This document shows positions 50,650 through 55,296 of a stretch of DNA of 64,000 nt, one piece after another. Positions within the stretch are counted from its first letter, which is position 1; each line of letters starts with the position of its first letter. The stretch lies in NCBI GenBank assembly GCA_022565795.1, contig JAIUMA010000012.1:1-64000 (forward strand), given 5' to 3'. The translations under genes and the position numbers were made by a program. The notes beneath the pieces are model-generated. The model had not been told where the DNA came from and made no database searches. It saw only the letters and a program-made list of their open reading frames with translations. Source of the DNA: Balneolia bacterium (GTDB lineage Bacteria; Bacteroidota; Rhodothermia; Balneolales; Cyclonatronaceae).

Positions 50650-50952
50650 TCAGCCTTGCATGCCCTGGGCAGTGAATAAGGCCTCCTCAAGTTCAACAAC
50701 AAGCATCCATGTTACCCGCTTGCTGTCGTAAACGATATCGAAGTAGCGGTCTTCCTTCGTCTTTACCACAAAGTGAACGTGCAGTGAATCGCCCACACGT
50801 TCGGAATACGACCGCTTGATCTGGTCGACCACGTGCCGGTCGCCGTTTGAGAGCATAAACCGGATTGGCGTAATGGCTCGTTTGAGATCAGGTGTCTTAA
50901 AACCGGCATAGACCGCTATAACGTTAATTTTTTCGAGCTTGGCTACTTGCAT
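50650..50952 (-). CDS. Small protein divergent from the Y-family polymerase gene
   Basis: 100 residues, predicted beta-rich (INVIAVYAGFK; TPIRFMLSNGDRHVVDQIKR; HVHFVVKTKEDRYFDIVYD; TWMLVVELEE). The pattern 'PxxFxxxxGxxxxVxxI ... YFDIxYD ... WxLVxLE' recalls small SH3-like proteins that accompany Y-family polymerases in other phyla (such as DUF6504), but this is only a resemblance. It has no signal peptide. Its promoter region carries the same 19-bp direct-repeat motif as the polymerase gene in mirror orientation, which strongly suggests co-regulation. Confidence 0.7.
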   Translation of the reverse strand: MQVAKLEKINVIAVYAGFKTPDLKRAITPIRFMLSNGDRHVVDQIKRSYSERVGDSLHVHFVVKTKEDRYFDIVYDSKRVTWMLVVELEEALFTAQGMQG

Positions 50953-50986
50953 AAGGCAGTCTTTTTCTGATTAATGATAGCTTTGC

Positions 50987-51005
50987 ACATATATTACACA
51001 TATAT
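50987..51005 (-). promoter_or_regulatory. Operator-like motif facing the 100-residue gene
   Basis: ACATATAT-TAC-ACATATAT: two copies of an 8-mer at 11-bp spacing, 35 bp before the start codon at 50952. The same 19 bp occur, inverted and with one change in the spacer, in front of the polymerase gene. Confidence 0.65.
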
Positions 51006-51103
51006 ACTTTCAACCGCAATCCCGGGTTTGTAAATTCTGGTTTGATTCCGGAAAAATGACGGTGCGGGCGATTGTGAAGCCGGGTGCAAAAGAGTTCGTT
51101 TCA

Positions 51104-51122
51104 ATATATGTGCAATATATGT
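51104..51122 (+). promoter_or_regulatory. Operator-like motif facing the Y-family polymerase gene
   Basis: ATATATGT-GCA-ATATATGT, the reverse complement of the motif at 50987-51005 with one of 19 bases different. It ends 10 bp before the ATG at 51133, so a bound protein would cover the promoter or initiation region. A LexA-like or other damage-responsive repressor is the obvious guess. Confidence 0.65.
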
Positions 51123-51132
51123 AAATTGAAAT

Positions 51133-52455
51133 ATGAAACTCGACCCCGGCTCATACGACCTCACGCGGAATGTGCACAGAATTACGCTGTATAACACTAT
51201 TTCTGCGGACCAGCGGCATGTGCGGAAAAAGCCACGCCTTTATCTGCATCTGGATATGAACTGCTTTTATGCACAGGTCGAACAGGTGTCGTACGATCTG
51301 CAGGGGCTGCCGCTGGTAGTGGGAGGCTGGCGCAAGCCCGACGGCACGGCACGTGGGATTGTGGCCACATCAAGCTATGAGGCCAGGAAGTTCGGAGTGA
51401 AAACCGGCATGAGCGCTTTCGAAGCGGTGAAGCTGTGTCCGTACGTGGTATTTATGCAGGTGCATTACGATAAGTATCAGGCAATAAGCAGGCAAATCCG
51501 CAGGGTGCTCGATAAACATGCGGGTGATGTGGAGGCCTACTCGATGGACGAATATTTTCTCGATCTCACCTTCATGATAAACCGGCCGCGTACAGAGCTG
51601 TTTGAGTACGGGCTTCGCATCAAGCGGGATATCTATGCGGAAACGGGCCTGTTCTGCTCACTCGGAATTGCGAGATCGAAGACCTATGCAAAGCTGGCCT
51701 CTGATTTGGTTAAGCCGAACGGACTCACGCTGGCACTCGATGAGCAGGAGGAGCGTGAAAAAATATGGCCGCTCGCGCTCGATGAGGTTTGGGGAATAGG
51801 GAGCCGGCGCTATGCAAAACTTCAGCAGGCGGGCCTGAATACGATTGAGGACGCCATCACAAAAGGAAAAGGCATTTTCAGGAAGCTGTTTGGTCAGTAT
51901 TTCGGGGGAATGCTGTATGAAACCGTGTGTGGACTGGACCGTGCCATTGTGAAGGATGCGCCCGACCATGTGCCGGATGAGGTCACGTATATGCATACGT
52001 TCTCCAACTGGACGACTGATGCCGAGCAGGTAAAAGGAGAGATAACGAAGTCGGTAAGGCAGCTGTGCTATCGCATGCGGGGCTACAACAGAAGGGCAAG
52101 GAGATACTCATCATACCTGCGCTTTCAGGATGAAACCTGGAGGGGCGTTCAGGTGGTTTTTGCCACGCCGGGCTATACCAATCTGGATGACTACGTGGTG
52201 AGCGCTGCGTTAAGGGCGCTTATGCCCGTCGTAGAGCACTATATCCGCCACGGACAGCGCGTACGGGGCTTTGGGGTAAACACGCTCGACCTGGACGCAA
52301 CCGGCCAGATCGAGCTGTTCTTTCGGGAAGATGAAAAAATGAGGAATCTCTTCAGGGCCCGCGATACGATTAATAACCATTATGGATTTGAGAGCCTTGT
52401 GCTGGCCTCTTCGTTCGAGGACGTGAAGGGGAAAACACACTTTCTGGACCGCTGA
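51133..52455 (+). CDS. dinB: Y-family DNA polymerase (DinB/UmuC superfamily)
   Basis: 440 residues. Translesion polymerase with catalytic carboxylates Asp41 (LHLDMNCFYAQVEQ) and Asp139/Glu140 (YSMDEYFLDL); Tyr46 is the likely steric gate. Palm/fingers are at about 36-210, thumb HhH segment WGIGSRRYAKLQQAGL, little finger at about 290-410. An N-terminal extension of about 35 residues precedes the first strand. The C-terminal QIELFF (about 394-399) resembles a clamp-binding peptide (QxxLF). It is divergent from the 100-residue gene, with shared operator motifs. Confidence 0.93.
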   Translation: MKLDPGSYDLTRNVHRITLYNTISADQRHVRKKPRLYLHLDMNCFYAQVEQVSYDLQGLPLVVGGWRKPDGTARGIVATSSYEARKFGVKTGMSAFEAVKLCPYVVFMQVHYDKYQAISRQIRRVLDKHAGDVEAYSMDEYFLDLTFMINRPRTELFEYGLRIKRDIYAETGLFCSLGIARSKTYAKLASDLVKPNGLTLALDEQEEREKIWPLALDEVWGIGSRRYAKLQQAGLNTIEDAITKGKGIFRKLFGQYFGGMLYETVCGLDRAIVKDAPDHVPDEVTYMHTFSNWTTDAEQVKGEITKSVRQLCYRMRGYNRRARRYSSYLRFQDETWRGVQVVFATPGYTNLDDYVVSAALRALMPVVEHYIRHGQRVRGFGVNTLDLDATGQIELFFREDEKMRNLFRARDTINNHYGFESLVLASSFEDVKGKTHFLDR

Positions 52456-54417: not shown

Positions 54418-55296
54418 TTACTTGGTGTCGCCGTCACGGTTGTAGTCGTAACCATCAGCATTACTCATAATCTGAGCAACAATAGTAAGGAATACACCGT
54501 AAATCACTTTTGAAGAAACGTCAGCAATGGTGTAGGTAATCTGACGACCAACTACGGCAGCTTCAGCAGCAAGACCTGTGAGCGATGGCTCGAGTCCTGG
54601 CGGAATCAGGTATGGCATCAGGTAGGCACCTGGATAAAGCATCCATGACCAGAAGAAAATTACCCAAATGTAACCCATGTAACGGGCAGCATCTTTTGGA
54701 ATTCCTTCAGAACCTTCCTTAATAACTTTCTTCATTGTAATAAGAATATCAACGAAGAAAACAGTCGAAATGAAACCCCAAATGAAGAATACAGTAGGGT
54801 TAGTTACCTCATAGTACTGACCTATATAACCAGTCACAATCATTAGTGTACCTGAAATCCAGAAGCGGTTTCTCACAGATGAGAAGCTGCTCTTTGTAAG
54901 AGTAACAACAAAGAGAATCTGGAAAAGAAGCATTGGTACGTCAATCAACCAGTTCAGGTAGCGGTAACCGTTGTTAAACAGTGCGCTGCCATCGGCCAGG
55001 AAGTAACGGCCTCTTTCGGCATCGAATGCAAAGGCATCAATCCAGTTTTGCGCCTGAATGAACAGAAGCAGACCGGCTGAAACCATTACCACAACAGAAA
55101 GAACAGCTGTTGTACGATACTTTGGTTGTACAGTCTTGATAGTTAGGATGAAGTAGATGAGGGCTGCAAACATCACAGCGTACCCCACAGTAAGAACGTG
55201 TGCTACCATCTGGAAACCCATTTCCGAGAAACCCTCGGTTTGTCCCACATAGTTTTCAAAGGTAGCATTACCTAAATTGAAATCAGTAGCTTGCAT
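54418..55296 (-). CDS. Light-driven sodium-pump rhodopsin (NDQ type)
   Basis: 292 residues with seven helices. Helix C carries the NDQ motif: Asn115, Asp119 and Gln126 within YLNWLIDVPMLLFQ, equivalent to N112/D116/Q123 of KR2. Retinal binds Lys263 in helix G (IADVSSKVIYG), with Asp259 as partner; Arg112 and His33 (KR2 R109 and H30 equivalents) are also kept. The N-terminal NLGNATFENYVGQTEGFSE is nearly the KR2 sequence. It exports Na+ in light, and H+ if Na+ is absent in the known relatives. Retinal synthesis genes (blh, crtY) are not in this window. Monocistronic. Confidence 0.97.
   Translation of the reverse strand: MQATDFNLGNATFENYVGQTEGFSEMGFQMVAHVLTVGYAVMFAALIYFILTIKTVQPKYRTTAVLSVVVMVSAGLLLFIQAQNWIDAFAFDAERGRYFLADGSALFNNGYRYLNWLIDVPMLLFQILFVVTLTKSSFSSVRNRFWISGTLMIVTGYIGQYYEVTNPTVFFIWGFISTVFFVDILITMKKVIKEGSEGIPKDAARYMGYIWVIFFWSWMLYPGAYLMPYLIPPGLEPSLTGLAAEAAVVGRQITYTIADVSSKVIYGVFLTIVAQIMSNADGYDYNRDGDTK

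Follow-up and report, generated by a model that had tools for sequence, protein, structure and literature searches.

Two predicted direct-repeat LexA operators between a translesion polymerase gene and a conserved small gene in a Balneolales bacterium

The window analyzed here is a stretch of 64,000 nucleotides from a Balneolia bacterium (contig JAIUMA010000012.1), in which two divergent genes flank an intergenic region (50953-51132) of 63% A+T. The plus-strand gene (51133-52455) encodes a DinB-type Y-family translesion polymerase of 440 residues, which looks catalytically active, given that the catalytic residues in its HLDMN (residue 39) and YSMDE (residue 136) motifs are retained. Toward the C-terminus, we recognized by resemblance a putative beta-clamp-binding motif QIELFF (residues 392-397; 52306-52323, plus strand) and a RecA-NT-like motif RDTINNHYGFESLVLAS (residues 410-426; 52360-52410, plus strand), the RecA-NT element being a proposed RecA binder (PMC6511836). 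The protein ends in a conserved tail, VKGKTHFLDR (residues 431-440; 52423-52452, plus strand), which is a natural candidate for the site at which a small partner protein might bind. The minus-strand gene (50650-50952) encodes a 100-residue all-beta protein, which we consider below as a candidate accessory subunit of the polymerase.

The intergenic region contains two copies of the motif ACATATAT-N3-ACATATAT in opposite orientation, which differ at a single base within the N3. The left copy (50987-51005, plus strand; ACATATATTACACATATAT) lies 34 nt from the ATG of the 100-residue protein gene at 50952, and the right copy (51104-51122, minus strand; ACATATATTGCACATATAT) lies 10 nt from the ATG of the polymerase gene at 51133, with 117 bp separating the two centers. 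Each is built of two ACATAT half-sites with a period of 11 bp, at 50987-50992 and 50998-51003 in the left box, and at 51117-51122 and 51106-51111 in the right box. The original prediction, made from the DNA sequence alone, had described precisely these mirrored 19-mers, each upstream of one of the divergent genes, and had held such a placement to be unlikely by chance. In line with this, a search of the window with up to 3 mismatches to the 19-mer recovered 3 matches, one of them an overlapping register, whereas 100 shuffles yielded 0.38 matches on average and in no case 3.

We then scanned the whole assembly (3.59 Mb) with pattern searches allowing mismatches, with the reversed pattern as a control. 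The 19-mer has 7 genomic sites at up to 2 mismatches versus 0 for the control, while the 17-base core ACATATATTNCACATAT has six sites at up to 2 mismatches (versus 3 control sites) and only five at up to 1 mismatch. Beyond the two at the polymerase locus, these five comprise a site with 1 mismatch just upstream of the gene for a 213-residue LexA, another at the start of the gene for a PcrA/UvrD-type helicase, and one between the genes for a YfcE-type phosphoesterase and a PA0069-family radical SAM protein. The recA site has 2 mismatches to the core. Thus, the genome-wide scan is positive near both lexA and recA, and the random scatter of the motif that would have spoken against a damage box is not seen: good sites are few and lie at repair genes. 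Core matches at exactly 3 mismatches (20 versus 19 in the whole control) are at the level of background, and we did not interpret these as further boxes. A half-degenerate box, ACATATATTTTTTATATAT, is found about 30 nt upstream of an apparent ribonucleotide reductase gene (L005, approximately 1501-1519; G000:C10:28330-28348); it is weak and could be due to chance.

The original prediction had also stated that the motif resembles no known LexA box, but this is outdated as the same direct repeat was published in 2020. The Balneolaeota LexA box, TTACACATATTTTWTACATA, was inferred from lexA promoters and described as a direct repeat of ACATA with an 11-bp period, with support from EMSA that used the LexA of Balneola vulgaris only, on B. 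vulgaris and Rhodohalobacter promoters (Kilic, Sanchez-Osuna, Collado-Padilla, Barbe, Erill 2020; PMC7739468). Its authors regard this form of the box as independently evolved (PMC7739468). The left box in the window matches 17 and the right box 15 of the 20 positions of the published consensus. An unbiased count across 18 polymerase-promoter intergenic regions gave 10 in which a perfect 7-mer is directly repeated with a period of 11, as against at most 3 in shuffles, while inverted repeats with spacers of 0 to 13 are in no case clearly above shuffles. Hence, the architecture of the box is an 11-bp direct repeat rather than a palindrome, which confirms its published nature and rules out a palindromic LexA box of the E. 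coli or Bacillus type. The boxes at this locus are a further instance of the Balneolales LexA element described in 2020 and are not new. That the motif might be the damage box of its lineage, as had been proposed, is supported both by this published counterpart and by the sites at lexA, recA, the helicase and the radical SAM gene.

The LexA of the window genome passes the cut-off of TIGR00498 (119.5 versus 110.95 bits) and retains the residues of autocleavage, namely the Ala90-Gly91 bond, Ser125 and Lys161, as assigned by resemblance to known LexA; it is a canonical LexA. This is shared with the published Balneolaeota system, as are the ACATA direct repeat with its 11-bp period and the bacterial order. 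The published regulon comprises lexA, recA, polymerases IV and V, a helicase, a radical SAM gene and an SOS peptidase (PMC7739468), and lexA, recA, a Y-family polymerase, a helicase and a radical SAM gene are likewise among the box-bearing genes of the window genome. The two differ in that the genus of the window has the form ACATATATTrCACATAT in place of the published ACATATTTTWTACATA, and in that the divergent region of the window locus holds a pair of separate boxes; further, a small-gene target such as the one at this locus finds no mention in the main text of the 2020 paper (PMC7739468). Moreover, we rejected as further LexA targets the SRAP and umuDC genes of the window genome, which belong to the SOS response in relatives but here lack a good box. 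Farther afield, the alphaproteobacterial box GTTC-N7-GTTC is also an 11-bp-period direct repeat for a canonical LexA (cited in PMC8565304), but its half-site sequence is unrelated to the ACATAT of the window. In the sister lineage, the Bacteroidetes, translesion polymerases are similarly under SOS control; however, their non-canonical LexA is a CI-like repressor with palindromic boxes, CTAA-N5-TTAG and GGA-N5-TCC (PMC8565304), unlike the canonical LexA and direct repeat seen here.

We consider it highly probable (roughly 0.94) that both motifs are Balneolales-type LexA operators, such that LexA represses the polymerase and the 100-residue protein genes and DNA damage induces both. In such a system, the canonical LexA would sit on one box per divergent promoter and repress both genes, probably through occlusion of RNA polymerase. 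Upon DNA damage, RecA-ssDNA filaments would provoke the self-cleavage of LexA at Ala90-Gly91 via Ser125/Lys161, and the cleaved LexA would leave both boxes, so that the two genes would be switched on alongside lexA, recA, pcrA and the radical SAM gene. We infer LexA binding and induction at this particular locus. The proposal of a single repressor for both genes is likewise favored by the canonical LexA taken with the distribution of the box. Several points count against the LexA reading: a sigma-70 scan found no promoter between the two genes; the right box is very close to the start codon; the SRAP and umuDC genes of this genome are without a good box; and, as described below, the exact pattern is missing from some genomes of the order and from the Fodinibius-type clusters, while some lexA promoters of the family are altered in their spacing or half-sites. 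A candidate Bacteroidota-type -33/-7 promoter picked out by eye around the right box found no support from any test and was set aside.

Direct repeats with an 11-bp period, as confirmed for these boxes, are also typical of PhoB-type regulators, raising the alternative that a different regulator, such as an OmpR/PhoB-type response regulator, happens to control these repair genes. However, the box is present in the promoters of both the canonical lexA itself and recA, which is the classic signature of LexA autoregulation. Together with the demonstrated binding of a box of this type by a Balneola LexA (PMC7739468), this makes the alternative very unlikely.

The LexA reading is also consistent with the distribution of the box across relatives, the nearest named ones of the locus being Balneolales/Balneolia metagenome-assembled genomes. 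Of the 29 sampled genomes putatively assigned to the order, 24 carry the exact pattern ACATATWTTNYACATAT and 5 lack it, and none of the 169 genomes sampled from the rest of the phylum has it; the reversed control has 0 matches (Fisher P ~2e-26, a value that ignores phylogenetic dependence). We inspected 29 such boxes in related genomes, including a few from the window's own genus. Nearly all lie ahead of the polymerase/small gene pair, pcrA, rarA, umuDC, the radical SAM gene or an additional dinB, with rarA and umuDC being named from their own sequences rather than by a family search. A perfect box with no adjoining repair gene occurs in one genome (G074; L077, 1501-1517), about 450 nt upstream of an ORF resembling a phage-type peptidase, and possibly reflects a prophage or a small ORF under the control of the host LexA. 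The polymerase locus was found in five genomes of the window's genus (L034-L038), and every one of these retains both boxes. In the neighboring family, a single box is common to the two divergent genes, and its orientation relative to the polymerase gene differs. Thus, the mirrored placement stressed in the original prediction is not a fixed feature. We also weighed whether the motif pair might have arisen by chance from alternating A+T-rich sequence (ATAT runs) between divergent genes, as might be suggested by the composition of the region and the background level of the 3-mismatch matches. Against this are the excess of copies over shuffles even at that tolerance, the sites recovered from the genome against none in the reversed control, and, above all, the conservation of the boxes in relatives together with their positions at lexA and recA, which already refute chance as an explanation and leave it a negligible probability.

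Other arrangements of these genes occur elsewhere. In the HLUCCA01-type genomes (two loci), the small gene follows the polymerase gene in the same direction behind one box. In Fodinibius/Aliifodinibius-type genomes (eight loci: L158-L163, L060 and L072), lexA, the small gene and the polymerase gene are clustered without the ACATAT box; that the box is missing despite the presence of LexA suggests that the specificity of LexA has changed in these forms. Within the window's family, some lexA promoters have altered spacing or degenerate halves. In two congeneric genomes (L048 and L049), inspection by eye places the CATAT half-sites of the lexA promoter 13 bp rather than 11 bp apart, and half-site spacing at lexA itself may vary. 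Outside the phylum, an Opitutales genome (Verrucomicrobia; L143) has the same gene pair, again divergent and with SRAP nearby, an occurrence that would fit horizontal transfer of a repair cassette. Homologues of the small gene with 51% identity are present at this and at a second Opitutales locus (L156).

Turning to the small gene, we found its 100-residue ORF to be conserved in 9 of 11 genomes of the family, a pattern of conservation that marks it as a real gene. Its product is 54-97% identical within the family and about 31-51% identical outside it, with an invariant tryptophan (W82) near the C-terminus, and its homologues across Balneolales usually adjoin the polymerase gene. Part of the order has a form of about 200 residues, which appears to hold two copies of the domain. 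A diverged paralogue (L043; G007:C125), with approximately 25-29% identity, lies away from the polymerase gene and has no good box. The 100-residue protein itself has no match in Pfam or NCBIfam. This, along with the single box that serves the intergenic region in the neighboring family, might be taken to mean that the polymerase alone is SOS-regulated, with the left box and left ORF being incidental. However, the identities just cited, the retention of the gene's own box at all five congeneric loci, and two genomes (G008 and G009) in which the small gene has its own box while the polymerase is not adjacent in the available sequence make this improbable, though slightly less so than control by another regulator.

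An AlphaFold model of the 100-residue protein (pLDDT 84.7) is all-beta, with six strands followed by a C-terminal helix. A fold search with this model recovered no match in the PDB at E <= 0.001, and there is no sequence relative in the PDB either. A possible parallel is offered by the standalone ImuB-C proteins, which are small beta-barrels whose genes accompany those of Y-family polymerases, in many cases close to lexA or SRAP (PMC3765255, PMC6511836, PMC12926913). As in the PolY-[ImuB-C]-RecA modules, the locus pairs a small all-beta protein with a catalytically intact Y-family polymerase; the polymerase has a RecA-NT-like motif, by resemblance to the published description, and a conserved C-terminal tail; and homologues of the small gene are frequently near SRAP or lexA. 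Models of the two show the same strand order, and both are all-beta proteins with a conserved C-terminal Trp and no close PDB fold, features that are compatible with a relationship but not diagnostic of it. The 100-residue protein differs in that the loop linking strands 1 and 2 is longer and a C-terminal helix is added. The model that shows this strand order is of a DUF6504 protein from a lexA-polymerase-DUF6504-dnaE2-type operon of the same phylum. At the sequence level, hmmscan gave only below-cut-off matches to DUF6504, for 9 of the 15 aligned 200-residue homologues (best E 0.0073), while hhalign against DUF6504 proteins gave a probability below 1% and HMM searches were negative in both directions. 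Most likely, the locus encodes a LexA-controlled polymerase and an accessory subunit that is ImuB-C-like in architecture.

We infer, then, that the 100-residue protein is an accessory subunit of the RecA-binding polymerase. It is a plausible, if tentative, extension of this that the gene specifies a previously undescribed SOS-induced subunit, that a Balneolales mutasome consists of the RecA-binding Y-family polymerase, the small beta-barrel protein and RecA, and that the private LexA operator of each gene in this genus makes the ratio of polymerase to partner separately tunable. The new part is the conserved, apparently LexA-controlled companion of a translesion polymerase gene in a bacterial group that has received little study, its product being a concrete candidate subunit of a mutagenic polymerase complex. 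The locus also permits comparison of its divergent promoter in forms with one box and with two, and illustrates that reading the sequence alone can suffice to recover a genuine SOS box, in this case one that had already been described for the lineage. Elsewhere in the window, the minus strand at 54418-55296 carries a bacteriorhodopsin-like gene (PF01036) in which N115, D119 and Q126 are spaced as in the NDQ motif of sodium-pumping rhodopsins.
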